Made by a program: the position numbers and the translations under genes. Source: Dioscorea cayenensis subsp. rotundata (taxonomy: Eukaryota; Streptophyta; Magnoliopsida; Dioscoreales; Dioscoreaceae). Taken from it: DNA of 64,000 bases. How positions within the stretch are numbered: position 1 is the first letter of the stretch; each line of letters begins with the position of its first letter. The stretch lies in contig NC_052492.1 of assembly GCF_009730915.1 (NCBI RefSeq), positions 248,001 to 312,000 on the forward strand, in the 5' to 3' direction. Positions 5,505 to 48,045 of the stretch are shown here, piece after piece. The notes under the pieces were generated by a model. It was not told the origin of the DNA. It saw only the letters and a list, made by a program, of their open reading frames with translations, and ran no database searches.

Positions 5505-5660
5505 GCGAATTTCATATGAATATCTTCCATTGGAGTCATATCTTCAAATGAATTCAAGAGAAAGAAGTTGCGATGTTTGAAGAAAACAAGGAGACAAGGC
5601 TCCAAGAATAATTTATAGGCATGTAAAAAGGCTGGCTCCTCTCACATGGATTTATATAAG
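5505..5660 (-). pseudogene. PP2C-like gene relic: start codon exon and 5' leader only
   Basis: On the minus strand this 155-bp stretch closely matches the 5' leader and first coding exon of the PP2C-like copies at about 22.3, 37.1 and 43.1 kb. The ATG is at 5530, and the peptide begins MEDIHMKF, as in the copy at 43125 (MDDIQMKF). Similarity stops just inside the exon at about 5505, next to LINE-side sequence, so the rest of the gene is missing. This start codon is the clearest guide to the real start of the family. Confidence 0.65.
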
Positions 5661-6059
5661 TTTTGTTGGACAGTGATTTAAGGTTGGTGCAAAAGTAAAA
5701 GGAGTGAAGAGAATGTTTATATGTTATTGAGATGTTTATATTGTGTATGCGTGCATGTATTGTTAGATTTATATAAGTTGAATGTTTGTATATATGCTAG
5801 AGAATTTGTATTGTTGGTGTTTAAATTAATATCGTTAAGAGAAACCCGAGAGTGCTAAGATGAATGAAGTTTGAAACGAGTGACTGAGTTTGTCTCATCT
5901 AATCAAGCGCTTAGTTCGAGGCAAAGTGCGATTAAATGGTTGGAGTATAGTTTTTGTTAAGAAGCGGATGAATTTTCAATGTGTTTTTTCTCTAGTTTTC
6001 GTGTGAGATTGTCTCTATTCTTCATCTTGTTGCCTTGTGTTCTTGTTTTCTATTTTCTA
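5661..6059. other. Unassigned sequence
   Basis: AT-rich stretch between the PP2C-like leader relic and a LINE RNase H fragment. I see no gene, RNA or repeat signature in it. Confidence 0.4.
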
Positions 6060-8020: not shown

Positions 8021-8127
8021 AGGCATAGAACAATTAAGAGGTTGTATATGTACAAATAGAAAAGTTTAATGATATATGAGTTTTCACTCACTTTTTAAAA
8101 AAAAAAAAAAAAAGATAATGATTTTAT

Positions 8128-8205
8128 AGGGGTGTAAATGCAAAGTGAGTTGGGCCCTTAAGATGGTCACAGCCCATCTCTTCCAGCGCGCGAGTTCGAC
8201 ATTGT
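8128..8205 (+). promoter_or_regulatory. Relic of the DPH6-side promoter
   Basis: About 75 bp here match the promoter in front of the two DPH6 copies (22512-22600 and 43252-43340). The shared parts are TAGGGGTGTA, a TTGGGCCC site II-type block, and GCCCATCTCTTCCAGCGCG followed by CGAGTTC. No DPH6 exon follows. I read it as the stump of a third DPH6 copy whose body was lost. Confidence 0.55.
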
Positions 8206-8510
8206 TAGATTTCATTTTTAACCTAGCTTTGTAAATAAAATAGATAAACTATAGTATCATTAGGATTAAATTTCATATTTATCTTTGTTTATGCAATATG
8301 TTAACAGATAAACTATTATTTCACTATAATCATTAATTTAATCCATAACTTTTAAATCGCTTGCTCAAGTTGAATTTAAGCCTGGGATGTGTACGAGACC
8401 AAGTAAAAAATCTCTCCCGTTTTGAATCGAACTCAATTTATTATTATTTTTTAAAAAAAAAGGATAGTGGCCGGCTTATCAAGTTTTAGTATTTAAACAC
8501 CTCTTTGTTC
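8206..8510. repeat. DUF295 upstream segment, shared with 38.99-39.53 kb
   Basis: Sequence such as AGTATCATTAGGATT and the CAAGTTGAATTTAAG block recurs at 38991-39177 and 39437-39510, upstream of the third DUF295 copy. It marks the left part of the duplicated DUF295 unit. Confidence 0.6.
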
Positions 8511-8514
8511 TCTT

Positions 8515-8583
8515 TGCAGTTGCGCGTGGAAGAAGGCCAAAGGGCAAAGAGGCGAAGCTCTCGTCAGGGCGACAAACCTAAAG
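8515..8583 (+). other. Non-coding 5' leader exon of the DUF295 gene (putative)
   Basis: A GC-richer stretch (GCGCGTGGAAGAAGG and GGCGAAGCTCTCGTC) ends at 8583 and is followed by donor GTACGT. It has a close counterpart at 39560-39631. A plausible acceptor, TCATGCAG, ends at 9318, 74 bases before the ATG. This implies a 735-bp intron in the 5' untranslated region. The splice is inferred from sequence only. Confidence 0.5.
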
Positions 8584-9392
8584 GTACGTATCGTCTCTAG
8601 TTTTTACCAGTCTATTTGATTTTGATTGATCGTCATATAGACTTGATTTTCCTAATTGTTTAATATATGTTTTGTTATTGTTGTTACTATTATTATTATT
8701 ATTATTATTTATTATTATTATTTTTATATGCGTTGCCATCACCATCAGTGATTTGCATGTCTCAATTATTTATCAATCTCAATGTTAATTATGGAACAAG
8801 GATTGGCTTACATGATCCTTAAAATTTTAGAATCGTTTTTGAGAGATTATATATAAATATATATATATATATATAACAAAGGCATGGATATTAATCGATT
8901 TCATTAACCACCGTCTTAACTTGTATTTTTCTTTTATCAAAATAAATAAATCATAAATTTATTAAAAAAGAACATATAAAAGAAAAACCGAATTAAAAAA
9001 ACAAGATTAAAAAAATAAAGAACGGACAAATGAAGACAAACCAAGAACCAAACACAAAAACAATTTTAATTGTCATGCAGTACTGTAGACCTAAACCAAT
9101 TTTTTATGGCTATTTTCAAGACCAATTACAGCGTGTATGTGTATATTTTAAAGCTGGCGTGTCTTCTCTCTCGATCGGCTTCAAATAATTATAATTTTGG
9201 TGATTTAAAAATTTGTTATATGGATGATATCTTTATCATGCATAATTGTTGCATGTGCTTAATTAGAATAAAAATTTGTGTTGCAATGAATCAATAACAT
9301 ATTCGTACTTTCATGCAGTCAATTAAAGGTAATATATATATAGAGGCCAATTAATTAAGCACCTGCGTGGAGGAAGAATTAAGAGAAGAGAG

Positions 9393-10466
9393 ATGGGTAG
9401 TAATGATCAGACAAAATTCTTGCCTTCGGTTCTGTGTGTACCTGATTACAACAGCACTGAGCGTGTGATCCTTGACATCTCTACGAAAAAGTTTCAAATC
9501 ATCACCAATCCAAGGTTTGAGGGTGCAAGATGTGTGTCTTCAAAAGATGGGTGGTTGTTGTTTGTTAACATCCATCCTTCCAACTCGCTTTGTTATTTAC
9601 CTTTTTTGCTCAAACCTTCTACTGGTGATCAAATCGATCTGCCGGAGCTAACCATTGTAGATTTAAAAGTCAGACGTTGTTTGGTTTCATTATCAGTTGT
9701 TTCCGGTACTCCAAGTTATATTGTTGTTTGTGTCACAAATGACCAGGACCCTCATGGCATGACACTTAACGTGGTCTCTCTTCAGGCACAGGCACAGGCA
9801 CAAGCAGGGGGACAACGATATGTTTGGAAGGCATATAAATTTAGTAACTATGACCGAGACACTAAGATATGCACTTGTGTTATACTTGAAAGTCGTCATC
9901 AAGTGTTGTGCTTGGGCGATAATGGGGAAGTGATTGCATTTGATCTTTGGGATTTGAGTTGGACCCATAACTCTCAACTTCAACTGAGGACATTACATAG
10001 TATCGTTTGGTACTTGGAGTCCGATGGGGAGGTGCTAAGGGTTAATGCTTTGACCCCATATTTCAGCGACTTTGTCTTTTACAAGCTTCATATGGAGGAT
10101 GATAGAACTACGATGATGGCGTGGGTTGAGCTTGATCAATCTGAGTTGGAGAATACTGGTTGGTTTATTAATGGTACCTCCTCCTTCCTTGTTAAGGGTT
10201 TGGAACAACAATATGATCATTTTGGCAAGAAGAAGCTGGTGTTTATCCTTCATCCCAATATGTATGGAGGTCCTAAGGGTCCTGACCTTGAGACAGCTAG
10301 ACGGAAGAAGATGATGGTCACTTTTGCCCAACCATGTGGCTCTGATATGGATGCCAATATTTATATTCATGACTTAGACTCTCCAGACTGCGCTACCCAT
10401 ACTCTTTTCCCTCACCCATTCCGTACAAAGCATATTTCTTGGATACAAACAAACTGCTCTATTTAA
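9393..10466 (+). CDS. DUF295-family protein (F-box-associated/KIB-type beta-propeller), intact copy
   Basis: A single-exon protein of 357 residues that starts MGSNDQTKFLPSVL. It has the hallmarks of the plant DUF295 / F-box-associated propeller family: SSKDGWLLFVN (residues about 50-60), LLKPSTGDQIDLPEL, a central CLGDNGEVIAFDL strand, and a C-terminal HLSW-like end (ISWIQTNC). The family usually has an N-terminal F-box that binds SKP1; none is present here, so an E3-ligase role should not be assumed. Residues about 130-140 are a Gln-Ala run encoded by CAGGCA repeats, which are fewer in the copy at 40.6 kb. Two relatives lie at 12.78 kb (decayed) and 40.6 kb (frameshifted), so this is the only open copy of the three. 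The start is the first ATG after the inferred leader splice, in the context GAGATGGG that all copies share. Confidence 0.8.
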   Translation: MGSNDQTKFLPSVLCVPDYNSTERVILDISTKKFQIITNPRFEGARCVSSKDGWLLFVNIHPSNSLCYLPFLLKPSTGDQIDLPELTIVDLKVRRCLVSLSVVSGTPSYIVVCVTNDQDPHGMTLNVVSLQAQAQAQAGGQRYVWKAYKFSNYDRDTKICTCVILESRHQVLCLGDNGEVIAFDLWDLSWTHNSQLQLRTLHSIVWYLESDGEVLRVNALTPYFSDFVFYKLHMEDDRTTMMAWVELDQSELENTGWFINGTSSFLVKGLEQQYDHFGKKKLVFILHPNMYGGPKGPDLETARRKKMMVTFAQPCGSDMDANIYIHDLDSPDCATHTLFPHPFRTKHISWIQTNCSI

Positions 10467-11610
10467 TTTTTTTTTAAATCCATTTATGGTATTATGTTTT
10501 TTTTTCATATTCAAACATATGCATTAAAACATGTTATGATATTTTTATTTATCAAATTATTATTATTATTTGAAATGGTGGATAAACCACTTCTATTAAA
10601 GCTATGGAAAAACAAAGTAACAACCAAACCCCTATCTCAAAGCAAATTTTTTTTCCTATACTGTTTATTAATGTGCAAGTAGTGGTTTTTCTTTTTGGCT
10701 CTTGTACGTCATGAATTCGAACTTTCTACTTTTGAGCAGGGGATGTACATTGTATACACATATTTCTTCTATCTAATGTTTATTAATGTGCATAGTTAAT
10801 TTGGTAGGCACATCAAGACCAGTGCACTCTTTAAGTTTTGAAAAAACTTGTATTATGTACTTAAATCTTTTGATTAAAATATATGGATTGTTTGCCAAAT
10901 ATATAATTACGACACAGCTTGCCAATGTTTAGAGGTTAACAATCTATGTTTCATTTGAATCCTATTTACTAATATTGCATTGAAATAATTTAGTTATATA
11001 TGCGGTGGAAATATGCTTTGATTTAATGAGATCATGGTTAATATCAATAGCATGAAAAATGGTGACTAAAATCAAGTGGGATAGACAAATGCACTCTCAG
11101 AGATTAATTGTCTTTTACCTATAAAAAGTTTATGGCTACCATGTTAAATTATAAAACACATAGGCTTTTTCTCCTATTAGGCATAATTTTTTTTATTAAC
11201 TAAATGGTCCTTGTACCATCAAATCAATGCCTAGTCAACATATGGGTGTTGACTGGGAAGGGGCTATTGACCGGGTATTTTAAAAGCAACTCATTAGTTT
11301 TTTTGCATTCTAACACTTTTTTTTTTTGTAATTACTAAAATAACTTATTTACGTTTTTTTTTTTTTACACAAATAGTGAGCAATACATTCCTTGCTAACA
11401 CATGAAAGGTCATTTCTATTGATGAAATTGTTTGCACCTTGATCGAGTAGTGACTGATACATTCTAAACATGATAGCTAGTTGCTATTGAATTTATTTGC
11501 ACGATTAGTGAGTGATACATAATTCATTGTAATGGTGATGAGACAGTCTAGTGCTTTCTGAAATTTGTTTGGTTTGTTTTTTGTTTTGCACATGTGGGTG
11601 ATTTCTTTCT
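10467..11610. other. 3' flank of the DUF295 copy and start of the next unit
   Basis: 10470-10850 is 3' flanking sequence that recurs after the other DUF295 copies (15950-16230 and 41650-41950), for example the AATGTGCAAGTAGT block. 11384-11610 matches 40230-40490, upstream of the third DUF295 copy, and so begins the next unit. The stretch between them is AT-rich with no gene signal. Confidence 0.55.
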
Positions 11611-12660
11611 TTCTTTTTTTTTTTTAAAAAAAAAACCCATCAGAGGCTAATTTATTGAAAAGGAGGAGAATACATAACTAGGACAAATACAAAGGAGGTT
11701 TAGAAAAACAACTACAACTTACAAAAGGACAATAAGAACTTTAACTAATTAAAGAAATAAAAACTAGTAGCTTTGAAACTCTTCATGATCCCGCAAGGAA
11801 GATCTTGGCCAAGAAGATACAAGTTCAAAGTGTAAAAATTGAGACTAAAATTGGCCAAATTAACAGCTGGACACATCCAAGTCAAAGGAGTAACATGGAG
11901 CAGAGGATTTCCATTTATGTTCAACAAAAACTTCACATTGGAAATTAGATCGTTAAACCTCCAAGAAATGGGTGAGTTATAGTCGGAAAAGGCCGTAACA
12001 GTAGTTTAATTATTAAATAAAATGTGTCTGATCGAGATGTTCCTTTCTCAGGTTGTGTATAAGGCCACTTCCATAGTCTTCAAATCTCCACTAATGACAT
12101 CATTTGCAGGCCCAGAGAAACAACTTGCAAAAGAAACAACGAAGTCAGAATTTGAGATAAATAAACCGGTTGAAGTTACAAACCTGGAGCTGTTGTGTTG
12201 GGCATAAATAAACAAAAATTGTCCATCTGCCCAAGAAAAATTGTTGCAAATAAGCTTCCTGCCATAAAGATTGTTATTCCCAACATTGAAATCATTAATA
12301 TGAGCCATGGCTTTGCAAACAATATTGCAGATATTCAAGTGAGCATACCTGAAAATGACATTACATCTGTTTTTCCAGAAAAAACCAGGCACCTGTGGCT
12401 ATAAGTGAAACAATATGCTTGGAATAATTGTAATTGGTGAGCTATGCACTAGATGCAAAGCTATCCGTGAAATGAATATGTATGTTCACCTTAAGACTAA
12501 GCAGAAGCCAAACAGTCTGAATTTCCGGGCATGTGATAAGTAAATGATCAATTGTTTCTCTATCAAGTCCACACAAAGAACAAGGGATGTCCGGACCAAG
12601 GTTCAACCTGTATAAATGATCTGAAGTTGGAAGTCTACCCTTAAAGATTAACCAAATAAA
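11611..12660 (-). mobile_element. 5'-truncated LINE inserted upstream of the decayed DUF295 copy
   Basis: On the minus strand, from about 12660 down, this encodes FIWLIFKGRLPTSDHLYRLN, then C-x2-C (CSLCGLDRETIDHLL), ITCPEIQTVW, and further down WFFWKNRCNVIF and a degraded RNase H-like part. This is the zf-RVT to 3' end of a plant LINE. The low-coordinate end is a T-run at about 11614-11625, i.e. a poly(A) tail on the minus strand. Comparison with 40.49 kb, where the flanks are continuous, gives the insertion borders at about 11611 and 12660. Stops and frame changes show it is inactive. Confidence 0.8.
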
Positions 12661-12779
12661 ATGCATGATTGATGCTCTTAGAATAAAAATTTGTTGCACT
12701 GAAACAATACCATTCCTAATTTCATGTAGACCAAGGTAATATATATACATGCCAATTAAGCACCTGCAAGAAGGAAGGA

Positions 12780-13800
12780 GAGATGGGTAGTAATGAGAAG
12801 TATGATATGACAAAATTCTTCCATTAAGTTCTTTGTGTATGTACCTGATTGCAGAACACTGAAGTGTGTGATCCTCGACATCTCCACAAAAAAGTTTCAG
12901 ATCATCACAAATCCAAGGTTTAAGGATGCAAGTTGCGTGTCCTCGAAAAGATGGGTGGTTGCTGCTTGTTAACATCCATCCTTCCAACTATGCATGTTAT
13001 TACCTTTTCTGTTTAATCCTTCTACTGGTGATCAAATAGATCTGTTGAACTAATCGTTGGCCCAAAAATCAGATGTTGTTTGTATTCATTATTAGTTGTT
13101 TATGTACTCCAAGTTATATTGTTTGTGTCATAAATAATCCTCGCGCATTACTCGCGCATGACACTTAATGTGTCCTCTCGTCAGGCATAGGTGGAACATG
13201 TTTGGAAGGCTACAAAGTTGGTAACTACGACAGGTACACTCAGCATGCACTTGTGTTATACTTGAAAGTCGTCATCAAGTGTTGTGCTTGGGCTATAATG
13301 GGGAAGTGATTGAATTTGAAATTTTGAATTTGAGTTGGACCCATAACTCTCAACTTAAACTGAGGACATTGAACAGTTGTGTTTGGTACTTGGATTTTGG
13401 CGGGCAGGGAGGTGCTAAGGGTTTATGCCTTAGATCATATTTCAACAGCTTTGTCGTTTTACAATTTACAAGCTTTATATGGAGGACAATAGGATGATAA
13501 TGGAGTAGGTTGAGCTTAATCAGTCTAAGTTGGAGAATACTAGTTGGTTCATTAGTGGCAGCTCCTTCTGTGTCAAGGATGGGGTACAATATCAACATGG
13601 GAAATTGTTGTACATCCTTAAGCTCAATTTGTATGGAGGCCCCAATGGTCCTAACTTTGAGACAGCCAAATTGAAGACGGTATACCTTGGGCAACCATAT
13701 GGCTCTGATAAGGACGCCAATGTTTATATTCATGACTTGACACTCTAGACTTCGCTACCTATATTCTTATGCCTCATTCATTCCGTACAAAACATATTTC
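12780..13800 (+). pseudogene. DUF295-family pseudogene (second copy)
   Basis: Starts at about 12783 with the same GAGATGGGTAGTAATGA context as the other copies and follows them to the last codons (TTCCGTACAAAACATATTTC at 13781-13800). Recognisable pieces include LCLGYNGEVIEFEI (about 13285-13322), SWTHNSQLKLRTLNS, and NTSWFISGSSFCVKDG. Several indels and stops break the frame, including early ones near 12825-12850, so no protein of useful length remains. A copia element interrupts it at 13800; the last bases and the 3' flank resume at 15921. It corresponds to the DUF295 copies at 9393 and 40602. Confidence 0.82.
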
Positions 13801-15920
13801 TCTTGGTTACTTCTAATAACCAAGAGCAGCAACAAGAAGATGATGTTGATATTGAAACTCCTCCTTGAAGGTATCGCTCCATGAGAGATATAATCTCTTC
13901 TTGTAATTCAGCCTTCTTAGTGCATGAACCAAAAAAATTTTCAAAAGCATAAAAAGATGAAGTATGGAGGAAAGCAATGGATGCATAAATTCAAAGCATT
14001 GTGAAAAATCATAGTTGGGAGCTTACAAACCTTCCAAAAGGAAAAGAAGCAAGGACAGAAATGGGTTTATAAATTCAAGGCTCGTTTAGTTGCAAAAGGC
14101 TATGCACAATAGCCTGGTGTTGACTTCAATGAAACATATGCTCTTGTTGCTAGAATGGAGACGTATCGAACCGTTCTTGCCTTAGCTGCACAAATGGAGT
14201 TGATGGTATATATATCAACTTGATGTAAAATTAGCGTTTTTAAATGGGGAATTTCAAGAAGAAGTGTATGTGAAGCAACCTGAAGGCTATTGCATCAAAC
14301 GAAAGTAAGATAAAGTGTATTGCCTGCACAAAGCTTTATATGGGCTGAAACAAGCTCCACAAGCATGGAATAGCAGGATTGATTCTTATTTTTTGAGATA
14401 TGGCTTTCTTAGAAGTCCAAATGAACCATTACTCTATGTGAAGAAAGAAGAAAATGGAGATTTTCTAGTTGTTTGTTTATATGTGGATGATTTGATTTAT
14501 ACTGGTACAAATGGAGCAATGATCTAACATTTTAAGAAGGCTATGATGGAAGAATTTGAAATGACCAACTTGGGCTTATGAAGTATTTTCTAGGTATCCA
14601 AGTTAAACAATCAAGAGGTGAGATTTTTATTTCTCAAGAAAAATAGACAGAAGGTTAATTTGTTGGAAAAGTTTGGCATGACAAGTTGTAAAGATATTGC
14701 TACTCCAATGAGTCCTAATGAAAAATTGCAATAGAATGAAGACGATGGTGTAGATGCAACAACCTATAGAAGCCTTGCTGGTTCTCTCATTTATCTTACT
14801 AAGACAAGGCTGGATATTGTTCAATCGGTGAGTGTTGTTTCAAGATTTATGTCCAAGCCTAGCAAGGCACATCTATCTGCAGCAAAAAGAATTCTTAGAT
14901 ACTTGCAGGGAACAAGGAAAGAAGGAATCAAATATGAGAAGAATTCAAAATGTGACTTAGTTGGATTCACAGATAGTGATTGGGCTGGTAGTAATGATGA
15001 TCGAAGAAGCACTTCAGGATATGTTTTTTTGCCTTGGATCAAATGTGATCTTTTGGTGTTCAAGAAAACAAAAAACCATTGCATTATTATCAGCTAAAGT
15101 TAAGTACATTGATGCAACAGAAGCAACTTGTGAAGTTATTTGGCTAAGGAGAATTCTTGTTGATTTGTAGCAGGATGTTTCAGAATCAACTACAATATTT
15201 TGTGACAATATGTCAGCTATTGCAATGACTAAAAACCTTGTTCTCCATGCTAGAAGCAAGCACATCGAGTTGTGTCATCATTTCATCCATGATTTGATGA
15301 GCAAAGGTGAAATTCACTTGGAGTTCATCAACACACATGAAAATGCTGCAGATTTTCTAACCAAAGCAGTTGCAAGAGACAAGTTTGAAAAGTTCAAGCA
15401 ACAGTTGAAAATCACAAATTAAGAGGGGTTGTTAAGAGGTAATTTAGATTTTCAATGGTTGATGTGCTTGGCTAGTCTTATAGTTGACTGGTCTTTAGTC
15501 TTGGTAGTATTATATGTTTGTATTGTTGATGCATTTTCTCCATGTATATGTTACAAGTGTTGTCATGTGATGAGTCCCACATGTTGTTGAATTGACTAGA
15601 AAAAGAAAAGTAAAGGAGGTCACATGGGTATGTTTTGAAGAACCATCTCTCTTCCTCTTATGATAATGTATCTGCAATGGAAGAAATGAAATGTTGAAAA
15701 ATTCTGTAGAATTTTATATTGTGAGCAAAATCTAACATCAATGCATACATTGTCTCAACTTTCTTCTTCTTGCCTACAAGTTGTTTGAGGAATTGTCTAA
15801 AAGAATATTATTCAAGCTCTTGGCTATATCCTACAACAACTACAAGGGCCAAATTGCAGATTCTATAAATTGAGGTGAGCCCAGCTATCTTGCAGGAATT
15901 TTGAGCTTCATTCTCTAACA
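13801..15920 (+). mobile_element. Broken Ty1/copia retrotransposon (reverse transcriptase/RNase H part plus 3' LTR)
   Basis: A fossil Ty1/copia element in the plus direction. The parts present are reverse transcriptase (with the YGLKQAPQAW and CLYVDDLIYTG signatures at about 14337-14505), RNase H (TDSDWAGS near 14970, and the KHIELCHHFI region near 15260) and one LTR at 15430-15920. The 5' LTR, gag and most of the upstream pol are absent, so the copy is 5'-truncated and carries numerous breaks. The five bases ATTTC occur directly on both sides (13796-13800 and 15921-15925) and the flanks are continuous DUF295 pseudogene sequence, so it inserted into that pseudogene. Degree of decay: moderate. 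Confidence 0.85.
15430..15920 (+). repeat. 3' LTR of the copia fossil
   Basis: Begins TGTTAAGAGG right after a purine-rich tract and ends CTCTAACA, giving the usual TG...CA termini with TGTTA/TAACA inverted ends, 491 bp long. Confidence 0.75.
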
Positions 15921-16849
15921 ATTTCTTGGGTATAAACTAACAGCTTGATTTGATTTTTTTTTTTAACCATTTCTGGTATTACATTTCTTTTCATATAAAA
16001 CATATGCATTAAAACATGTTATGATAAATTTTATTTATCATTATGCCGTGTTCAAATTTTCTGCCTTATATTGTTTATTAATGTGCAAGTAGTAGTTTTC
16101 TTTTCGCTCCTGTAATGGATTAGAACTTTCTACCTTTGAATGGGGAAAATACACAATCATATTTCTTCTACAACTATTTATTGTTGTGCACTATATGGTA
16201 ACCATATCAAGACTAGTGTAAAGTATGTTATGTTGAGAGTGTGTTGCATCTCCTTTTGATTATGCTAGGATTAAGGATTTTTTTTTGTGTTTGATAATAT
16301 GCTCAGTTTGTGCCCTTTGACATTGTGAATTGTTTAAGCTCTTAAAAGTGTGAAATTAAGTGGTTTGTCAGGAATCTGATTTCTCGAATAAAGGAAAAAT
16401 ATATAGGAGACCAATATGCTCGTAGATGAGCACAGAGTGGCATATTCCTCAAAACATAAATGATTCTCACTTGACTAGGTAAGATAAGTGACTTCTCATG
16501 GAGAAGAATAGGAAAATTCTTGTTAATGCTATAGAATTGGGTTTATTGCCTCCATCCTAAACTCAAGACCACAACATTATGTAATTTTATAATTCCCAAG
16601 TAACTAGCATTAGTTATTTTCATCAAATCTATTTAAGCTCGTTTTAAGCTCAGGCTTAATATGCTTAATGAGCTGAGCTCAAGCTCAACTAGTTTTCATT
16701 ATAAACAAATATTTTTTGAGTCGAACTCAAGCTTAGCTTTGCCAACTAGACAAGCTAGACCTTATAGTTAATTAATTCTGCAAAGCTAAGCATGCCCTCA
16801 AACTCAAGGCGGATCATGCGTCTTAAGTTTGGATAACATGAAGAGATGC
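15921..16849. other. DUF295 3' flank, then unassigned sequence
   Basis: 15921-16230 continues the interrupted DUF295 copy and its 3' flank (compare 41605-41950). 16620-16770 contains an AAGCTC/GAGCTC-rich patch resembling the element at 38.3 kb. Between these I see no gene. Confidence 0.5.
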
Positions 16850-18904: not shown

Positions 18905-19168
18905 GGGCTTGTTTGGATGAGCTTATAAAAAAAAAGTGCTTTTTTTGGCTTTTGTAGAAGCACTTTTGGGAAAAGTACTTTTGAGTAAGTTAAGTACTTA
19001 TAAAAAAAAACTGGTCTTTTGTAGCTTATAAAATAAGCTATTTTTGGGCTTATTTTACAGCTTCAGCTTATCCAAAAAAACTGATCCAAACACCAATAAA
19101 CCATCATAAGCACTTAACTTATGAAATAAGTGCTTTTGGATCAGCTATAAGCTGATCCAAACAAGCCC
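18905..19168. mobile_element. Tourist-like (PIF/Harbinger-type) MITE, 264 bp, inside the copia fossil
   Basis: Terminal inverted repeats GGGCTTGTTTGGAT on the left, and the right end reads ATCCAAACAAGCCC. Both flanks carry ATA (18902-18904 and 19169-19171), a 3-bp duplication close to the usual TTA/TAA. The body is a near-palindrome built from AAGTGCTT and GCTTATAA motifs and could fold into a long hairpin. It has no coding capacity. Confidence 0.8.
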
Positions 19169-19990: not shown

Positions 19991-19994
19991 CTTT

Positions 19995-31200: not shown

Positions 31201-31206
31201 AAAAGG

Positions 31207-34082: not shown

Positions 34083-34089
34083 ATTGTCG

Positions 34090-34690: not shown

Positions 34691-34699
34691 GCAATGAAT

Positions 34700-35160
34700 A
34701 ATACCTGCCAGATTCCATCACTAGCTAATATCACTGATTCACCATTTGCAGGCTTGACCACCTTGATAATCATACCCAAGTTCTGTTCTCTGGGAGATTG
34801 AAATTTAAAATGCAACAAATCTGAAAAACCTTTGAGTCAGTAATTGTGTTTGAGAAAAGTACATATTATAAGAGATACACAGATATTAATTTATGAACCT
34901 GATACGCTAGGCCTGTTATTTCCAGTAATTTCAGAAGCATTTCCACCTTTGGATACCAGCACAGCCATGTAGTTCACCCTGCCTGCTGCAATGAACTTCT
35001 TGTTCTTCACAGTAATCATCAATTCAAAACCTCCATTGAAATCAGTTCCTTCTGCAATGTCTTCGTACATCTTCCTTCTTGAAGAACTAATCATAACATT
35101 CTTCAATATCCTTACACTTTTCCTCCAGAACTCTTTCTGTACATATCCAAAGATATGAAA
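34700..35160 (-). pseudogene. PP2C-like partial copy (two exons)
   Basis: The exon at about 35138-34908 encodes EFWRKSVRILKNVMISSS, RKMYEDIAEGTDFNGGFEL, MITVKNKKFIAAGRVNYM, AVLVSKGGNASEITG. The exon at about 34825-34710 encodes DLLHFKFQSP and the SVILASDGIWQ end. They align with the middle and end of plant PP2C domains (EFW...AI; GGSTA...GKKLWVANVGDSRAVL; LILASDGLWDV). Upstream exons are missing, so this is a partial tandem copy of the gene at 35.4-37.2 kb. The Asp of the GDSRAV motif is not kept. Confidence 0.7.
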
Positions 35161-35397
35161 TCACAACTTGATCGTTAATCAATCAAATGACTAATTACTG
35201 TTACTATTTTGTATAATCAAAACAGGAAGCAGAGAATTCAATTAATATGATAATATCCATTGTCTAATAATTACTGCAGTGAATCTATTGTCCGCAAGTT
35301 GTGAGTTAAGATAAGTTTCAATTTCACGTCCAGCGTTTGGCTCAAAAATCTCTAAAACATGCATTGTAGGGGATGCTGATCAGTGAATAATACATAC

Positions 35398-36871
35398 CTG
35401 CCAGATTCCATCACTAGCTAATATCACTGATTCACCATTTGCAGGCTTCACCTTCTTGATAATCATACCCAGGTTCCGATCTCTGGGAGATTGAAATTTA
35501 AAATGCAGCAAATCTGAAAAACATTTGAGTCAGTATAATTGTGTTTGAGAGAAGTACATATTATAAGAGATGCATGCACAGATATTAATTTATGAACCTG
35601 AAACGGTAGGCCTGTTATTTCCAGTAATTTGTGAAGCATTACCACCATTGGACACCAGCACAGCCTCGTAGTTCCCCCTGTCTGCTGCAATGAACTTCTT
35701 GTTCCTCACATTAAGCATCAATGCAAAACCTCCATTGTCATCACCTCCCTCTACATTGTCTTTATGCATCTTCCTTCTTGAAGAACTAATCATAATATTC
35801 TTCAATATCCTTTCACTATTCCTCCAGAACTCTTTCTGTAAATCCAAAGATATGAGATCAAAACCAGATAGTTAATCAATTAATTGATTAATTACTGTTA
35901 CTATTTTGTATAATCAAGACAGGAAACAGAGAATTCAATTAATATGATAATAGCCATTGTCTAATAATTACTGCAGTGAATCTCTTGTCAGCAAGTTGTG
36001 AGTTAAGATAAGTCTCAATTTCACGTCCAGAGTTTGGATCAAAAACTCCATGCAACATGACCAGTGAGATTTCAACGTTATTTTTCCGCATCAGAACAGA
36101 GCCAATGTATTGTTCGTCATTTGATGGAATTGCATGTCCAATCTCGTATTTCTCCATCACCCACTCCTCCAAAGCAGTCTTCAAACGATCGAGTACTTTT
36201 GCCGCCTTGATCTTCTGCATTTCAGACTTTAACTCATGATATAGTTCAGTAAAAAAAGAACAAAAGAAAAGCCATTGAATGAAGAACAACCAGATCTTCT
36301 AATCATCAGAACAAGAACTTCAATCAAAACAGCAAGATTTATAAAGAACCAAAACTAGCATTAATGTGTTTTCAAGAAGAAAAGAAGAAAAGAAGGAAGA
36401 CAAGCATGCATGCATTATTCTCATTATAAACCTTTAGCTAACACAATATCACATTATTGTGATATTGAGAACAAGAACTTCAATCATAAGCACAGCAACA
36501 TTTACAGAGAACCAACGCTGACATTAATGTGTTAATTTCAAGCCAAATTATTGTGATATTGAGAACAAGAACTTCAATCATAAGTACAGCAACATTTACA
36601 GAGAACCAACGCTGACATTAATGTGTTAATTTCAAGCCAACATTTACAGAGAACCAACGCTGACATTAATGTGTTAATTTCAAGCCAAAAAGATTGTGAT
36701 ATTGAGAACAAGAAGAAGAAGAAGAAGAAGAAGAAGAAGAAAGGAATACAAGATTAACGTAACATGCAGTATTAATTCTCATGATAAACCTTTAGCTAAC
36801 TAACACAATATTACATGATAAGAACAACAAGAAATGTAAAGAAAGAAAGGAGATTAAACATGGCATCAAGC

Positions 36872-36904
<33 letters not shown>

Positions 36905-37190
36905 TCAAGAAGTTCTTGAAGATCATGATGTCAATGAGTTTTCACTCACTTTGATATTCAGAAAAGAAGGACAATTAGAAGAAGAGAAAAGAAGAGGTTG
37001 TAGTTAAAACCTGCACTTTTAGCTTAAGAGCAACGAATTTCGCCTGAATGTATTCCACTGGAGATATATCTTCAAATGAATACAAGAGAATTGAAAGAGT
37101 TGCGAAGTTTGAAGAGAACAAGGAGACCAGGAGACAAGGCGCCAAGACTTAACTATTTATAGGGACTTAAGGCTAGCTCCTCTCACGTGG
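35398..37190 (-). pseudogene. PP2C-like gene, most complete copy (probably a dead phosphatase gene)
   Basis: The exons on the minus strand are: leader/first exon near 37060-37008 (IQAKFVALKLKVQ); second exon from about 36216 to 35950 (KIKAAKVLDRLKTALEEWV, MEKYEIGHAIPSNDEQYIG, VMLHGVFDPNSGREIETYL); third exon 35835-35598 (KEFWRNSERILKNIM, FIAADRGNYEAVLVSNGG); fourth exon 35513-35398 (GESVILASDGIWQ). The order and spacing follow small plant PP2C proteins. The DGH motif reads DPN and GDSRAV reads RGNYEAV, so the metal site is largely gone; the late SDG Asp remains. The expected start ATG is GTG at 37058-37056, and the C-terminal exon is absent. PP2Cs remove phosphate from Ser/Thr; this copy, if translated at all, could only be a pseudophosphatase. 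Confidence 0.7.
36453..36690. repeat. 94-bp tandem repeat, 2.5 copies, in the PP2C-like intron
   Basis: ATTATTGTGATATTGAGAAC recurs at 36453 and 36547 (94-bp step). A third, partial unit (CATTTACAGAGAACC) follows at 36641-36687. Units are nearly identical. A (GAA)n run follows at about 36712-36742. Confidence 0.9.
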
Positions 37191-37199
37191 ATTTATATT

Positions 37200-39177: not shown

Positions 39178-40601
39178 AAATTCAATCAATTAATGAAGCC
39201 ACTCAACTGATTGAGCACTCTCTCAATTTCTAAAGGACAAAAGTCTCAAACCAAACTGACAATTCAAGCTAGGATTTAACGCAGGAGTAGGATACTCCAT
39301 TGAATGGATTGGGCCGGCTTATGTTTTCTTTATTTTTTTCTATTTTTTTATCTATATTTATTTTAAAAAAAAACCTGATAAACTATAATTATTTCATTAT
39401 TATATGATTAATCTAATCCATATCTTTTAAATCGTTTATTCAAGTTGAATTTAAGGCCGGATTGGGTTAGGGAACAAGTCAAAGATCTCCCCGGTTTGGA
39501 ATCGAACTCAAAATTAATTAATTATAAAAACAAAGTATTTAAACCCCTTGTTCTATTTGGAGCTACGCGTGGAAGAGGAGGGGCGGAGAGGCGAAGCTCT
39601 CATCTGGGCGAGAACCCTAACCCTAGCGAAGGTGTCGTCTCTATTTTTTACTGGTTTGTTTTTAATTATGGAAGAAAGATTGGTTTACATGATCCTTAAA
39701 ATATCTTGAAATCGTAAAGGTCTGATCCCTGTAAGCTCCTGGAGTTTTTTTTTCTGTATTTTTTGTGTGTTATACTTATAGTTCCGTTTTAAGTTTCTCT
39801 TTAATAAATGTGTTTTATCTTTTTTTTTTTTCAAAAACAAATTTTGAAAGTTTTTTTTTTTTATGTTGTTGTCTGGTTCATTTATTTCAATAAATTTATG
39901 ATTTATTTATTTTAATAAAAAAAATATATATGCTACAATAAATCTGATGAATAAAACACACAAGGCACGCATTAATCGATTTCATTAATCACCATTTGAA
40001 CTGGTGTTTGTTATGAAATATTATTATTAATTAATCTTCCATCATGAAACATTAATTGATACACAGTATTTGATGCATGTGGTTTATTTATTTTTTTATT
40101 GTTACACAGTATAGGCCTGAAAACAACTTTAATTTTGTGGCTTCAAATAATTTTGATGATTTAATTTCATTTTGTTTCTGATATTGTGTGTCTAACTTTG
40201 AAATTTGTTAATTTGAAATTATTTGCACAAGTAGTGAATAGCTAAACATGATAGCTCATTGCTATTGATGAAATTGGTTGCACCTTGATCGAGTAGTGAT
40301 TAATACGTTCTAAACATGATAGCTAGTTGCTATATTGAAATTATTTGAACAAATAATAGTGAGTGATACATAATTCATTGTAATGGTGATAATTAAGACA
40401 GTCTAGCAAATGCTCTCTGAAATTTGTTTAGTTTTGTTTGGTTTGGTTTTGGTTTTGGTTTTGCACATGTTGTGGATGATTTCTTTAACAATGCATGACT
40501 GATGCTCTTAGAATCAAAATTTGTTTCACTGAAGCAATATCATTCCTAATTTCATGTAGACAAAGGAAATATACATGCAAAGCACCTACAGGGAAGAAGA
40601 G
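39178..40601. other. DUF295 upstream region: leader exon (about 39560-39631) and intron
   Basis: 39437-39510 matches 8350-8440. A leader exon counterpart ends at 39631 with donor GTGTCG and carries the double telo-box-like AACCCTAACCCTAG at 39613-39626. 40230-40490 matches 11384-11610 and 40492-40570 matches 12664-12740, which shows the place where the sister segment took up a LINE. Confidence 0.6.
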
Positions 40602-41646
40602 ATGGGTAGTAATGAGGAATATGATCTGGCAAAATTCTTCCCTTCAGTTCTCTGTGGATCCAATTCCAGCAGCACTGAGCGTGTGATCCTCGACATCTCC
40701 ACAAAAAAGTTTCAAAGCATCACAAATCCAAGGTTTAAGGATGCATATTGCATGACCTCGAAAGATGGGTGGTTGTTGTTTGTTAACATCCATCCTTCCA
40801 ACTATGACTGTCATTTTACCTTTTTCTGGTTAATCCTTCTACTGGTGATCAAATCGATATGCCTGAACTAACCTTTGGCCCAACAATCGGAGATTGTTTG
40901 TATTCATTATCAGTTGTTTCTGGTACTCCGACTTATGTTGTTTGTGCCATAAATAACCCTCGTGGCATGACACTCTATGTGGCCTCTCCTCAAGCACAAG
41001 TGGGACCGGGACGTGTTTGGGAGTCCTACAAATTTAATGCCTATGATAAGTTCATTTATATATGCACTTGCATTATACTTGAAAGTCGTCATCAAGTGTT
41101 GTGCTTGAGCAATATTGGGGAGGTGATTGCATTTGATCTTTTGGATTTGAGTTGGACCCATAACTCTCAACTTAAGCTGAGTACATTGAATACTTGTTGT
41201 GTTTGGTACTTGGAGTCTGGTGGGGAGGTCCTGAGGGTTAATGCCTTGATTCCTGTTTACAGCAGCTTTGTCTTTTACAAGCTTCATATGGAGGACGATA
41301 GGACAACAATGACGTGGGTTGAGCTTGATCAGTCCGAGTTGGAGAATACTAGTTGGTTCATGGGTGACAACTCCTTCCGTGTCAAGGGTGGTGGTGGTGG
41401 GGAACAATATCAACAGGGGAAAAAATTATACGTCTTTCATCCCAATGTATATGGAGGCCCCAATGGTCCTGACTTTGAGACAGCCAAACGGAAGACGGTG
41501 TACCATGGCCGACCATATGGCTCTGATATGGATGCTAATGTCTATATCCATGACTTGGACTCTCCAGACTTTGCTACCTATACTCTTATGCCTCATTCGT
41601 TCCGTACAAGTCTTATTTCTTGGGTACAACTTAACTGTTTGATTTG

Positions 41647-41647
<1 letters not shown>
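40602..41647 (+). pseudogene. DUF295-family gene, third copy, with a frameshift
   Basis: Starts MGSNEEYDLAKFFPSV and stays collinear with the intact copy at 9393. Near 40815-40830 the T-rich stretch differs by a net two bases, so the first frame (to 40871) runs into an unrelated tail while the true continuation (PELTFGPTIGDCLYSLSVV to SLISWVQLNCLI) is open from about 40835 to the stop at 41645-41647. Apart from this single shift the gene looks healthy. It is therefore a very young pseudogene or a sequence error in a homopolymer region. A glycine run (GGGGG) at about 41388-41402 is not in the 9.4-kb copy. Confidence 0.8.
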
Positions 41648-41677
<30 letters not shown>

Positions 41678-41964
41678 TATCTATTTATGGTATTGCATTT
41701 CTTTTCATATAAAAACATATGCATTGGAACATGTTATGGTATTTTAATTTTTATTTGTCATTAAGCCATGTTCAAATTTTCTACGCCTATACTGTTTATT
41801 AATGTGCAAGTAGTAGTTTTCTTTTGGCTCAGAACTTTCTACTTTTGAATGGGAAATGTACACATGCGTATCTCTTCTATCTACTATTTATTATTGTGCA
41901 CTATTTTGGCCGTAACCATATCAAGAATGGTGTAAAGTATATATTGTTCTATTTTGGCTATGAT

Positions 41965-43150
41965 TACTGAATCACCACTTCTTGTCTTCACCTTCATAGA
42001 AATCATACCTGAGTTCCTTCTCTGGGAGCAAGAAATCTAAAATGCAGCAAATCTGAAAAACTTTCAAATCAGTATGCAGTACTGTGTTTGAAAGAAGTAC
42101 ATATTAAGAGATACAGACATTTTAATTTATGAACCTAAAATAGTTCCGGGATTGTTATTTTCAGTAATGTTGAAGCATTTCCACACTTGGACACCAGCAC
42201 AGCCTCGTGCCTCCCCTTGTCTCTGCTGCAATTAATCAACTCCATATTGTAAAAGTTTTGCATGCCTGCAACTGCAAGGACTCCACATTATAATCATCTC
42301 CCTTTGCAAATTGCAATGCCTTCATGCAGCCTCCCTTTTCCGGCATCAGCCAGAGCATTCTTTAATATCAGCTCATTTGTCCTCCTCCAGTATTCATTCT
42401 GCATATCAAAAGATTTGAAATCACAACTCATTAAGTTAATCAATTAATTAATTACTATTACTATCTTATATAATCAAGACAGGAAGCTAGAAAAATCAAT
42501 TAATATCCATTGTCTTACTACTCCAGTGTACGTGTCTATTGTCTGCAAATTGTGACTCAAGATAAGAGTCAATTTCACGTCCATGTTTGGATCGAAAGCT
42601 CCGTGCAACATCATTAGTAAACCTTCAGCTTTGTTTTTCCATGTTAGAACAGAGGCAATTTATTTTTGCATCATTAATTTGCTGGAATTCCAAGCCAAAA
42701 CTTGTATTTCTTTATCCCCAACTTTTCTGCATGAGACTTCAAACGTGTGGTTAATTTTGCCAATTTGATCTTCTGCATTTGAGACATTAATTCATAAAGT
42801 TTAAAAAGAAAGAAAGAAAGAAAAGCCATTGAATCAGGAACAATCTGACCTTCTAATCATGAGAATAAGAACTTCAAATGGAACAGCAAGATTTACAAAG
42901 AAGCAAAGCTAGCATTCATGTGGTTTCAATTGATGAAAAGAAGAATTAAGAAGAAAGGGATGAATACAAGATTAACATGCATTATTCTCATGATAAGCCA
43001 TTAACTCGCTAACAAAGTATCATATAAAGAAGTTCATGAAGATCATCATGTCAATGTCATTGAGTTCAAAGAACCTTCATTCAAAAAACCATCAGCGCAA
43101 TGAATTTCATCTGGATATCGTCCATTGGATTTATATTCACACTTTCTAAG
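41965..43150 (-). pseudogene. PP2C-like pseudogene (right copy)
   Basis: Sister of the copy at 20.2-22.4 kb and divergent to DPH6. The first exon starts MDDIQMKFIA with ATG at 43125. Exon two remnants lie near 42780-42600, exon three near 42400-42130 and exon four near 42060-41970. Indels in exons two and three destroy the frame (for example the region of KYEF-like codons near 42690 and the GNYEAV-like part near 42210). It is directly followed by the DUF295 3' flank, without the copia element present in the left segment. Confidence 0.7.
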
Positions 43151-43469
43151 AAAAATAAAATTATATATATATATATATATATAACAAAATATAAGCCACT
43201 GTGTGAATTTTGAGCAGCTGCTCAGAGGGTAAATATAAAATTTCATATTTGATAGGGGTGTATATGCAAAGTAAGTTGATGGACGTGGGCCTTTGAGTGA
43301 GTTGGGCCCAATGCCCATCTCTTCCAGCGCGCGAGTTCTCGTTTCCTTAGCTTTCATTTTCAAAAGAGAGATTTAAATAAGAAAGAAAACCCCAGCTTTG
43401 CTTGGATGTCAAGCGCTAGGGTTTGGGGGAACTTCGACGTGCAAGGAGGCGTTTCCAGCGAGAGGAGAG
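43151..43469. promoter_or_regulatory. Head-to-head promoter between the PP2C-like copy and DPH6
   Basis: Only 344 bp separate the two opposed start codons (43125 and 43470). The interval holds an (AT)n run at about 43162-43182, a GGGCC-type site II cluster (TTGGGCCCAA near 43303-43312, GCCCATCTC after it), GCGCGCGAG, and a telo-box (TAGGGTTT, 43417-43424) just before the DPH6 ATG. Site II plus telo-box is a known plant combination for translation-related genes, and DPH6 modifies elongation factor 2. Confidence 0.6.
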
Positions 43470-46400
43470 ATGAAGGTGGTGGCGTTGGTGAGCGGCGGCA
43501 AAGATAGCTGCTATGCCATGATGCGTTGCATCCATTATGGCCATGAGGTAGACGTCCTCGAAGGCTTTTGTTTTGTGTAGAGTTCTCCTTTGTTTTTTTG
43601 GCATTTTATTCGGATTTTTGATGTTTTCTTTCTATTGATTCTGTGTTTTTTGTGATCAGATCGTGGCACTGGCTAATTTGATGCCGCTTGATGACTCTGT
43701 TGATGAATTGGATAGCTATATGTACCAAACTGTAGGAAGTTCCCTCTTTGGCTATTCACATAGTTTCGTTGAAATCTTTGATTCTTTTCTATCTTGTTTT
43801 GAAATTCGATGCTCTTTTTAAGTTTTAGTTATGTAGAAATGCAGGGAATTGTGTTGTATCATGTAATTAGTCTGTGATTCGTTTGTATTTTTATTGAAAT
43901 CTGACATTTGTTTTATGTTTTCTTTAATTATCTTAAGGATGGAAGTCTTTGTTTTACAGTGTAGTAGTTATGTGACAATGCAGGTTGGGCACCAGATTAT
44001 AACCAGCTATGCAGAATGCATGGGGATTCCATTGTTTCGGAGACGGATACGCGGATCGACAAGGCAAGACTCGCAACAATGTTTCCTTCAGCCATTCATG
44101 ATGTGTGAACTACTTTGTTCTATTCTTTTGATGTTTGTTGTGTGATATTTGTGCAGGCATGCCCATCTAAGTTATTCAATAACGCCAGGGGATGAAGTTG
44201 AAGATATGTTTATTTTGCTAAGCGAAATCAAACAATATTTTCCCTTTATAAATGCAGTTTCTTCTGGTGCCATTGCCTCTGATTATCAGAGGTTGAGAGT
44301 GGAGAGCGTCTGCTCAAGATTAGGCCTTGTTTCTCTGGCTTATTTATGGAAGCAAGATCAAACTTTGCTTCTTGACGAAATGGTAATTATTTACTTTATT
44401 GAATTTTTTCTAGACATGTGTCTGTCCTCTGTCAATATAACTACTTCTTGGAACTAAATGACTTTCATCTTGTTTCTTGTTATTAGATAGAAAAGGGAAT
44501 CGTGGCCATAATAATTAAGGTACAAATCATCACTTTGTAGAAGTTGCGCCTTCTGACTTCTTGCTTCAATTGCTGAGGTAGAAACTGCTTCCATTATCAG
44601 ATGTAGGATTCTATTAAAATATGGTATTTATGTTTCCATTGATTGTGTAAGTCTGTTAGACAACTTGTATGGGTTTAGAATTTTCCATCGTACTCTCCTT
44701 CAAGGTTTTTTTCTTGTTTCTTAATAATCTGTCATTATGTTTAGTATAAAAGTAAAATGTTCATGAATACTGCCGAAAGAGTTTCTGGTTTTCTGTTAGA
44801 ACAGTTATACTGATAGGGCGTCACCGATTTAGTTTTAATGATTGAATGGTGATTAAACTCACTTTTAGTTTGACAATATATAGGTTGCAGCAATGGGTTT
44901 GGTTCCAGCAAAGCACTTGGGAAAAGAACTTGCAGACTTGCAACCTCATCTTTTGCAAATGAAAGAGTATGCAATAAATTTAGAGCTTTCCATGTTTTTG
45001 GCTTATCGTTTCTTCTAATTGATTTGTTGACCAGAGCTATGATTTCTTGATGATGGTAATATGGAAATTAGATGAATCAGCCTGCTATTACGAATTATTT
45101 TTTACCAGAACTGGCATCTTGTTTGATAAACTCAAATTAATCTTAAACTTGTCTATACATGTAGGGCAAATGTGTACATGCTAAACGTATCTTCTGTTTT
45201 ATTTCACTCTTGAATAGGTTCTGTGGAATAAATGTGTGTGGCGAAGGAGGAGAATATGAAACCTTAACACTTGACTGCCCTCTTTTCAAAGTAAGTTCCA
45301 TACTTGTGTTAGTTTATTCTGGTACAACAATTTTTGGTGGTTTCTGAGGATAGTAGCTTTGCAATTTATGCACATGAGGATTCTTTTTCGAATTAAAACC
45401 CATTGTTATATTCACTTCATCCAATGATTTATTTTGAAGCTTAACCTTTCACAGCATGAACATATTGAACAAGAAAGTTAGTTTTCATTTCTCATGACTT
45501 GGCTTGAGGAGGTTATCTATAATAGAAGCCAAATGGATAATAAATAAGTTATGGATGGTTTATGAACTCAACAAATCTTTATTTTGGAGCTTGTGGTTCT
45601 AATTATTACTACTGCTAAATGTTTTATATACCCCTGTTTAATGCCATGAAGTTTGTCAAAACTCTACTGCAATTGTTTAATCTACCTCTTATAATAACTA
45701 TAATCCTGGTTGTATGTGTCTCTGTTGCACTTCGCAGAATGCAAGAATTGTTCTAGACAAGTTTCAAATATTACTGCACTCTCCAGATTCCATTGCTCCA
45801 GTTGGCATTCTTCATCCCATTGCTTTCCATCTGGAGTACAAAAAGGATATTTCATCTTTGAGGGGTGCTGGTGGAAATATAGATGGTTGTTCAGATAAAA
45901 TGGGATGTGTGCATGTAGTGGAAGGGAGCTCCACAGACAGTTGTATTGTCAGGTGCCAGTCATCACATCCGGTGCCTGATAATTATTCTTATGAGCATTT
46001 AAGACTATGTATTTCAACCACCAAACGAGATGTGTTTTCCGTGGGCTGTTGGATTGAAGGGCCTTCCCTAGGTAGGTGGTTTTAATTTGTTAAATTCGCC
46101 TTCAGGAAAAATTATTGTCATATTTAATTTCTCAAATCTGCACTACAGGCCTTCCGGAAGACCTTACAGCTGTTCTCTGGAGAATAGAATCACTACTCAG
46201 AACTGAAGGTTTTGACTGGGTGGATGTTTTGTACATTCACCTATATATTTCTGATATGAAGCACTTTGCATTGGCCAATGAAGTGTATGTGAAGTTTATT
46301 ACAGAAAAGAAGTGTAGCTTGGGTGTTCCATCTCGTAGTACTATTGAATTACCTCTGAAACAAGTTGGTTATGGTCATGCATATGTAGAGGTTTTAGTAG

Positions 46401-48045
46401 CAAGTGACCGGAGCAAAAGAGTTCTTCATGTTCAAAGTATTTCGTGCTGGGCACCTAGTTGTATTGGCCCATACAGCCAGGTACAACTTAGCACTCCTGT
46501 TTGGCTGTTCCGACGTTTCTTTGCATGTTTGTTTTACTTTTGTTCTTAGTTGTAGTAGTTAGAGAACACGAAAAATAAAACTTAGAAACTAAACCTTGAA
46601 AATGCATTTGTTATAAACCAATTAATATAACTACTTTTGTCAGTATACATCATCATCATATAGCATTGTGGGTGGTTTGAACGCTTGTCATCTATCATAA
46701 TTGTTTGGCTTGAATTAGGGCATAAGAAACTGATCAAGAAGCACAACAACTCGCACATTATTTTGGATCATGCTCAAAACAACATTATCTATGTTGCCAA
46801 ATTTTGATGATTTATTCCTGTTTCTATCCAGGCAACTTTAGATAAGGAGGTTCTTTATATGGCTGGACAATTAGGGCTGGACCCCCCTACAATGGAACTT
46901 TGTGCAGGAGGTTTGGTTGCTGAGCTGGTTCAAGCTCTTGAAAATTCTGAGGCAATTGCCAATTGCTTTAACAGTTCTCTTGCTTCTGCAATTCTAATTG
47001 TCGTTTACTGCTCTGCTTATCTCCAATCTAGTGAGAGGTATAAAATTCAGCAAATGATAACCGACTTTCTCAAACAAAAGGTCTCTGAGATGCAAACTGC
47101 ATGCATCTGTAGTGCATTTGATCCCATTTTCCTATATGTTCTTGCACCGGATCTTCCAAAAGGGTATATTTTTCTGCTCTCCAGCTGCATAACTTTGAAG
47201 TGTCCGCCATTATCAAAAATGAAGTGCCCGCATTTTTTTCTGCTTTCACTTCACCAAAGTTAAAGAATGTCTTAATATAATTTATCTATCTTCATTTTGC
47301 GTTTAATTATTCAAAGAACCCCTTGATAGCAACTGAAGAAGCCATTTTTGTTCTTTGTCATATGCTGTGGATAATATCTGAATTTCGTGCAGAGCACTTG
47401 TAGAAGTAAAGCCAGTGCTTCACATCCCCGAGAACAGTGAAGAATCTGTTGAAACCAATCTACACCAAGATCATGATAAGAAACCACATGACAGGGTGTT
47501 AGAGTATGCAAGATGGCATGATTCTTGCTGCCAGAATTACATTGTTTCTGAAAAAATATGTGCTGTGTTAGTTTCTGTTACAAAAGATGTAGCTGCAGAC
47601 ATATGCGGCAAAAACCTTCAGAATGCTCAAGGCTTCGAAGCAAATGGCTTTGTGAAGGACATGAAGACAATTGTGAAATTCTGCATTAATCTTCTTGACA
47701 AAATCCTTGTAGAAAACAATTTCTCTTGGGAAGACTTGAAGGTCAGTACCTACGCTTAGTGAAATATTTATGTAACTAAATAGAGTTAGCCCCTTGTAAG
47801 CTCTTCATTTCTTATCCTGTTAATTAATTTTGCAGAGTTTGAGGGTCTACTTCACAACAGATTTGTCAACTACCGCGGATGTGCTCTCTCTCACAATTTC
47901 TGAGGTTCTTGGTGAATTTGCAGAGGTTGGCAAAAGAGTTCAGGTTAATGAGCCAATATTTAACCTTATTCCAGTTTTGGGATCAGGCGGATCATCATTC
48001 ATGGATGACTTGATCACCTGTGAATTGTTTGCATCAAAGCTCTGA
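43470..48045 (+). CDS. Diphthine--ammonia ligase (DPH6) with C-terminal RidA-like domains
   Basis: Catalyses the ATP-dependent last step of diphthamide formation on translation elongation factor 2, in the cytosol. Twelve exons: 43470-43547, 43660-43731, 43984-44063, 44157-44382, 44487-44519, 44884-44966, 45218-45290, 45738-46071, 46149-46480, 46832-47163, 47393-47741, 47836-48045. All phases agree and give 733 residues, close to the Arabidopsis homologue. The N-terminal adenine-nucleotide hydrolase domain has the PP-loop SGGKDS at residues 8-13, GAIASDYQRLRVE, and the CGEGGEYETLTLDCPLF signature at residues 198-214. YjgF/RidA-like repeats follow (VLYIHLYISDM; IGPYSQATLDKEVLYMAGQ). Intron 3 has a GC donor (GCAAGA at 44064). 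The decayed paralogue at 23.3 kb leaves this as the only working copy in the window. Confidence 0.95.

Follow-up and report, generated by a model that had tools for sequence, protein, structure and literature searches.

The DNA considered here is a stretch of 64,000 nucleotides from the yam Dioscorea cayenensis subsp. rotundata (C22:248,001-312,000, referred to below as the window, in an assembly of 584 Mb and 2,249 contigs). The size of C22 (505,872 bases) and its number point to an unplaced scaffold. Between 5.5 and 48 kb of the window, a DUF295-domain gene (plus strand), a PP2C-like gene (minus strand) and DPH6 (plus strand) follow one another, in that order and orientation, as members of an array of whole and broken copies. 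We think it likely that this array was built by local direct segmental duplications near the end of chromosome 11, between RPL14 and a gene that we take to resemble COP1-interacting protein 7 (the CIP7-like gene).

Order of the array

On self-alignment, 12,648-26,373 (unit B) is colinear with 40,485-46,628 (unit C) through DUF295, its 3' flank, PP2C and DPH6 exons 1-9. Both units lie on one stretch without N, and their intergenic DNA matches too, not the genes alone. A preliminary description of this DNA had proposed a tandem array that includes intergenic DNA, with the three-gene order recurring at 12.7-26.37 and 40.5-46.63 kb, and had named similarity confined to the genes as one outcome that would speak against it; the colinear match, with the families recognized by Pfam, did not take that form. 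Smaller pieces of the unit were each scored against 60 dinucleotide shuffles (the z scores given below). Those previously assigned at 5.5, 8.03-8.25, 8.2-9.2 and 32.92-33.08 kb exceed their shuffles, and the DUF295 at 9.4 kb is a Pfam match. DPH6 is not above shuffles in 3.9-8.0 kb (z -4.5), nor is a DPH6 3' end in 26.45-31 kb (z -0.9). The same holds for DPH6 sequence between 37.2 and 39.3 kb (z 0.2 and -3.5), where a short stretch resembling the promoter has z 4.1; the pieces at 33-37 kb are therefore not shown to include DPH6. What is repeated extends beyond the three genes: the CIP7-like gene belongs to it as well, and so do a 132-base repeat and a second DUF295-like gene. Relatives of most of its parts are present on C11. 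Both sp16 primers (white Guinea yam; PMC5604175) have exact matches on C11, which span 262 bases from 1,499,867, and C11 is therefore chromosome 11.

DUF295-domain genes

DUF295 (PF03478, now Beta-prop_KIB1-4) is recognized at 9.4 kb (copy A, E 1.4e-14) and at 40.8 kb (copy C, E 3.4e-10). Copy A (9393-10466, plus strand, as are copies B and C and all three upstream segments) is open over 357 amino acids. Its upstream segment lies at 8217-9197 (z 26.6), and its 3' flank is adjoined by the upstream segment of copy B (10852-11608; z 18.9 over 10.83-11.61 kb). Copy B itself (12783-13820) is a pseudogene with many frameshifts and two stops. A fragment of a long interspersed nuclear element (LINE; zf-RVT, 11609-12656, minus strand) that is missing at the matching site on C11 separates it from its upstream segment, and a copia-type element (RVT_2, 13821-15920, plus strand, edges approximate) lies inside B. 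Copy C (40602-41645), with its upstream segment at 39263-40489, has its frame shifted by a net +2, owing to two additional T in T-runs. The counterpart on C11 is open over 361 codons, with one substitution in 1,498 sites; the frameshift may be a sequencing error and is not trusted. Clustered differences of 1-2 bases, many of them in homopolymer runs, separate near-identical copies at window 40814-40826 and C11:22,649,400-22,649,660 and suggest uncorrected sequencing errors. On C11, the copy of A (A') is interrupted by an insertion of about 4.1 kb, and it also has two extra A in an A-run and lacks one A from a run of three. A reciprocal loss, with A kept in the window and C on C11, was considered and is not claimed, since the frameshift of the window's C may be an error.

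Between A and C, nonsynonymous divergence (dN) is 0.154 and synonymous divergence (dS) 0.364 (ratio 0.42; dN < dS, Fisher test, 1.6e-6), implying constraint on one copy or both. The open frame of A has no F-box by Pfam at E 0.1, a separate upstream exon not having been looked for. Among the 50 DUF295 matches listed for the assembly (40 of 112 candidates scored), all six that extend into the coding part before query position 1,130 are on C22 or C11. The preliminary description overlooked a second DUF295-domain gene on the minus strand at 33150-34106 (PF03478, E 1e-6), which has tandem relatives on C11 (C11:22,629,489-22,638,534); its ten assembly matches comprise seven on C11, two on C537 and one in the window.

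PP2C-like copies

The PP2C-like copies all lie on the minus strand. Leftmost is a first-exon fragment at 5504-5836 (part of a broken unit, U0), which scores z 19.1 against copy D2 and 14.7 against copy B, and is not above shuffles against copy C (z 1.2). PP2C-like B (20099-22455) runs from 20,099 by comparison with D2, or from 20,239 by comparison with C, and contains an insertion at about 20,553-21,679; to its left is a second copia-type element (16731-20098, minus strand, edges approximate; gag is above the cut-off and one other open reading frame (ORF) has no Pfam match). Further right are the piece D0 (32921-33082, z 22.3), D1 (34697-35348, from sequence comparison), D2 (35375-37198), which lacks the 3' part of the domain, and C (41957-43170), in which a stop, read by eye, falls in an exon that is open in D2. 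The sole copy assembled and scanned whole, D2, matches PF00481 (E 3.8e-8) over profile positions 34-142 of 255 only; no copy in the window was shown to be complete, and a search of PDB with D2 gave no match. Across the assembly, 15 of 15 PP2C matches are on C22 or C11.

DPH6 and the join to the CIP7-like gene

DPH6 C (43470-48045, plus strand) is intact, with 12 exons encoding 733 amino acids, GT or GC donors and AG acceptors. Its predicted domains are a PF01902 ATPase (E 5.3e-38) and then two PF01042 stretches, the order by which it is assigned to the DPH6 family. Dph6 catalyses the amidation that completes diphthamide (PMC9273596). Exons 10-12 have one match in the whole assembly, making DPH6 C the only complete DPH6 found there; 27 of 27 matches to the protein are on C22 or C11. 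Both of the extra copies found, B in the window and C' in the C11 counterpart of unit C, lack exons 10-12. A promoter fragment without a DPH6 body also lies in U0 (8027-8249, plus strand; z 18.1 and 14.9).

DPH6 B (23300-26373, plus strand) consists of exons 1-9 only. Its start codon is gone, exons 4 and 8 are frameshifted, 62 bases of exon 7 are missing and codon 249 is an in-frame stop; between its promoter and the gene sits an insertion (22608-23194) resembling a miniature inverted-repeat transposable element, whose inverted ends are flanked on either side by TTA (as read by eye). Retroposition is excluded as its origin, the introns having been kept. Compared with DPH6 C, dS is 0.104, dN/dS is 0.54 and dN amounts to 0.64 of the intron divergence, near the ratio expected of a copy free from birth set against a constrained partner.

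Rightwards, DPH6 B can be aligned with DPH6 C as far as C coordinate 46,628, in intron 9; beyond that point its sequence is that of an intron of the CIP7-like gene, the two introns sharing the five bases at 26369-26373. This is the sole duplication join that could be read. It connects non-homologous introns with five bases in common, and that step was therefore not an unequal crossing-over between units. What follows is a CIP7-like gene without its 5' exons (26374-31347, plus strand), a copy of C11:22,603,514-22,608,832. On C11 the gene has its 5' exons: it runs from about 22,601,200, with those exons upstream of 22,603,498. The 5' stretch has six matches in the assembly (C11, three pieces of the chromosome 1 counterpart referred to below, and partial copies on C3 and C1335), none of them on C22. 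Three CIP7-like pieces from the window and C11 gave no Pfam match. A chimeric gene of DPH6 exons 1-9 and CIP7-like exons was rejected: with DPH6 exon 9 ending in phase 0, the frame meets a stop after four codons of the CIP7-like exon that comes next.

Because the CIP7-like 5' exons stand to the left of the array and the sole complete DPH6, with RPL14, to its right, DPH6 B was most likely cut at its origin rather than made intact and then decayed. The preliminary description had supposed the decay of once intact copies. For DPH6 B, with exons 10-12 single in the assembly, that account most likely fails.

Probable continuation on chromosome 11

The C11 interval 22.60-22.67 Mb contains the CIP7-like gene, 5' exons included, the 132-base repeat, a PP2C D2', a U0 piece, DUF295 A' and B', the tandem run of genes like the second DUF295, a C unit with its DPH6 cut in intron 9 (at C coordinate 46,788) and PP2C E1-E2, and ends in a 1,000-N gap (22,672,561-22,673,560). 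The window also has a scaffold gap of 1,000 N (2921-3920), and the contig with the array begins at 3,921 in a retroelement stretch (3921-5373, common to C11:22,613,780-22,615,215), which, judging by a motif, is presumably of LINE type and has no Pfam score. The last 400 bases before the C11 gap map to C11:22,613,378-22,613,779 (366 identical) and the first 400 bases of the window contig to C11:22,613,780-22,614,183 (367 identical). The two contig ends thus meet to the base within one retroelement copy, and the sequences on both sides (PP2C, U0) also match. Judging from the contig ends and the flanking genes, the window from 3,921 probably continues C11 at 22,672,560, which would make the array longer than 100 kb.

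Chromosomes 1 and 11 of D. alata are whole-chromosome paralogues, and there is a 1:1 correspondence between the chromosomes of D. alata and those of D. rotundata (PMC9010478). On chromosome 1 the counterpart region has the CIP7-like gene and then RPL14 (68% identity at RPL14), and DPH6, PP2C and DUF295 of the window have no DNA match at E 1e-6 in the interval from one to the other. The array therefore sits between two old neighbours. In the window, DPH6 C is followed by the RPL14 piece (48600-49240, minus strand), which scores 28.4 bits against PF01929, just below the cut-off of 30.5 (the chromosome 1 match scores 59). The next chromosome 1 piece to match is at window 57.6 kb, with order and strand kept; many AT-rich matches were disregarded in this comparison. 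Left of the window gap, C22:228,001-250,920 matches chromosome 1 beyond RPL14 in inverted orientation (C1:29,898,911-29,901,988), and the scaffold is probably misordered at 2,921-3,920.

Divergence, exchange and age

Four of the 19 segments compared with C11 are nearly identical to it in terms of substitutions (DUF295 A 0.35%, DUF295 C 0.07%, PP2C C 0.58%, DPH6 C exons 1-9 0.50%), and the remaining 15 differ by 2.4-9.4%. Within the upstream segment of DUF295 C, near 39,970, the difference steps from about 7% to 0.4% (34 of 485 sites on the left, 30 of about 6,700 on the right; Fisher test, 1.3e-23). The low-divergence block (block C, 39.97-46.79 kb, 6.8 kb) has its left edge in homologous DNA and its right edge, at 46,788, against non-homologous DNA. 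Recent copying between units fits block C best; the step could also come from an assembly chimera of haplotypes.

Units B and C differ by 14.0% in DUF295 (95% interval 12.0-16.0; 15.5% in a MAFFT alignment), 10.9% in PP2C (8.6-13.1) and 8.2% in the DPH6 introns (6.9-9.4), and the CIP7-like copies of the window and C11 by 5.2% (4.6-5.9). Relative to D. alata, D. rotundata has a median Ks of 0.064, D. dumetorum of 0.163 and D. zingiberensis of 0.389 (PMC9010478). Set against these values, the dS of 0.104 for DPH6 B-C and 0.364 for DUF295 A-C predict that the join should be about as old as, or older than, the split from D. alata, and the first copying much older.

Origin of the array

The order of events and the repair pathway are what we infer from these comparisons. 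Several DUF295-PP2C(-DPH6) pieces would go back to old copying (DUF295 A relative to B/C, PP2C D relative to B/C). At a later time a direct duplication would have joined DPH6 intron 9 to the CIP7-like intron, by end joining or template switching at the five shared bases, so that the CIP7-like gene stayed whole at the left edge and DPH6 at the right edge, with a cut DPH6 (B) fused to a cut CIP7-like gene between them. The cut copies would have drifted and acquired transposons while homologous exchange between units went on, with block C copied between two positions very recently.

Several observations sit uneasily with this history. DUF295 is more diverged between B and C than are the DPH6 introns (Fisher test, 6e-7), and the CIP7-like copies differ less than those introns do; with parts so unequal, one event with one clock is too simple, and one unit copied once does not fit. 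The DUF295 coding alignment is nearly a star (unique sites: A 71, B 62, C 65) and does not clearly group B with C. Between C and C' there are 30 small indels and 28 substitutions, and this excess of indels makes assembly error in repeated DNA likely there. The single-copy flanks (window 48,046-54,500, where the other 48 of 49 matches are partial, with 40 of 98 candidates scored; window 200-2,500, where the other five of six are short) fit a placement on C11 and do not prove it.

The scheme first proposed for this locus, in which one intact three-gene unit went through repeated unequal crossing-over and then decayed, accounts for the direct orientation, the constant order, the inclusion of intergenic DNA, the different ages of the pieces and the mosaic of divergence, and homologous exchange is supported by the divergence step. 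The sole readable join shares five bases only, however, DPH6 B and C' both lack exons 10-12, and the parts differ in divergence; as a complete account it is, in our judgement, unlikely. We give about as little credence to the possibility that the assembly has retained, as the C11 and C22 arrays, both haplotypes of a single place. The plant is heterozygous, and DUF295 A, DUF295 C, PP2C C and DPH6 C are only 0.07-0.6% apart (in substitutions); the scaffold order of the v2 assembly may also be imperfect (PMC9010478). Yet the other 15 of the 19 segments are 2.4-9.4% different, the flanks on C22 have no second long match, the contig ends meet to the base, and the two sides are unlike, with the CIP7-like 5' exons only on the left and the DPH6 3' exons and RPL14 only on the right.

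Independent gene-sized tandem duplications in each family, with neighbours brought together by chance, can point to PP2C D1-D2 (a local duplication of about 660 bases), to the tandem run of the minus-strand DUF295-like gene on C11 and to DUF295 A lying directly before the upstream segment of B, but B and C have order and intergenic DNA in common over 12.6-26.4 and 40.5-46.6 kb, and we regard this reading as very improbable. A transposon, for instance a Helitron or a Mutator-like element (MULE), that captured gene pieces and spread them is just as hard to credit: several transposons do lie inside the array and C' on C11 ends against DNA that we take, from a motif, to resemble a plant-mobile-domain element, but the copies are confined to one locus (15/15 for PP2C, 27/27 for DPH6) and the blocks are long, with intergenic DNA kept.

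Local direct segmental duplication thus remains the preferred explanation, and it leaves room for a more speculative addition. Two joins fall independently in the same 351-base DPH6 intron, at 46,628 (B) and 46,788 (C') in C coordinates, and C' starts in homologous DUF295 upstream DNA and ends at unrelated DNA in intron 9, as break-induced copying followed by end joining would leave it. Conceivably, though we doubt it, one-ended copying keeps the array alike, so that the locus multiplies DUF295 and PP2C, always cuts DPH6 and in that way holds DPH6 single.

Relation to known systems

This kind of event is already known and ordinary, and is seen here in unusual detail. Microhomology-mediated break-induced replication/template switching is listed beside non-allelic homologous recombination (NAHR) as a mechanism (PMC3744419). 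The yam array has what a microhomology-mediated tandem duplication leaves, namely direct repeats, one cut copy on each side of a join and few shared bases; unlike a simple duplication of that type, it has later nested copying, transposon insertion and homologous exchange on top, and one join is readable. With NAHR in the Co-2 cluster of common bean (PMC6102362) it has in common a mosaic of divergence, recent copying between units and a position near a chromosome end; it differs in that the readable join is non-homologous and that the yam genes are not resistance genes. The tandem DUF295-domain genes with their pseudogenes recall the divergent expansion of F-box families described in plants (PMC3030570), but DUF295 A has no F-box by Pfam in its open frame and unrelated neighbours were copied with it.

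The array thus offers a base-resolution view of a plant gene block that multiplied while a gene for the modification of a translation factor stayed single, it indicates a likely place on chromosome 11 for an unassigned scaffold, and it cautions that assembly errors can lie behind frameshifts called in such arrays; it opens no new kind of system. The yam sex region is described as lying at an end of chromosome 11 (PMC13128126, PMC5604175); sex-linkage of the array was considered and rejected, the sp16 marker at C11:1,499,867 lying 21 Mb from it.

Minor features

The 5' part of the CIP7-like gene also has partial copies (85%) at C3:12,785,018-12,785,719 and C1335:11,614-12,313. The 132-base (44-codon) repeat is present in six copies at 31867-32667 that are 96% alike, and its flank is also found on C11. 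To the right of the array, an ORF at 51918-52133 encodes a MazG-like pyrophosphohydrolase (PF12643, E 1e-6).

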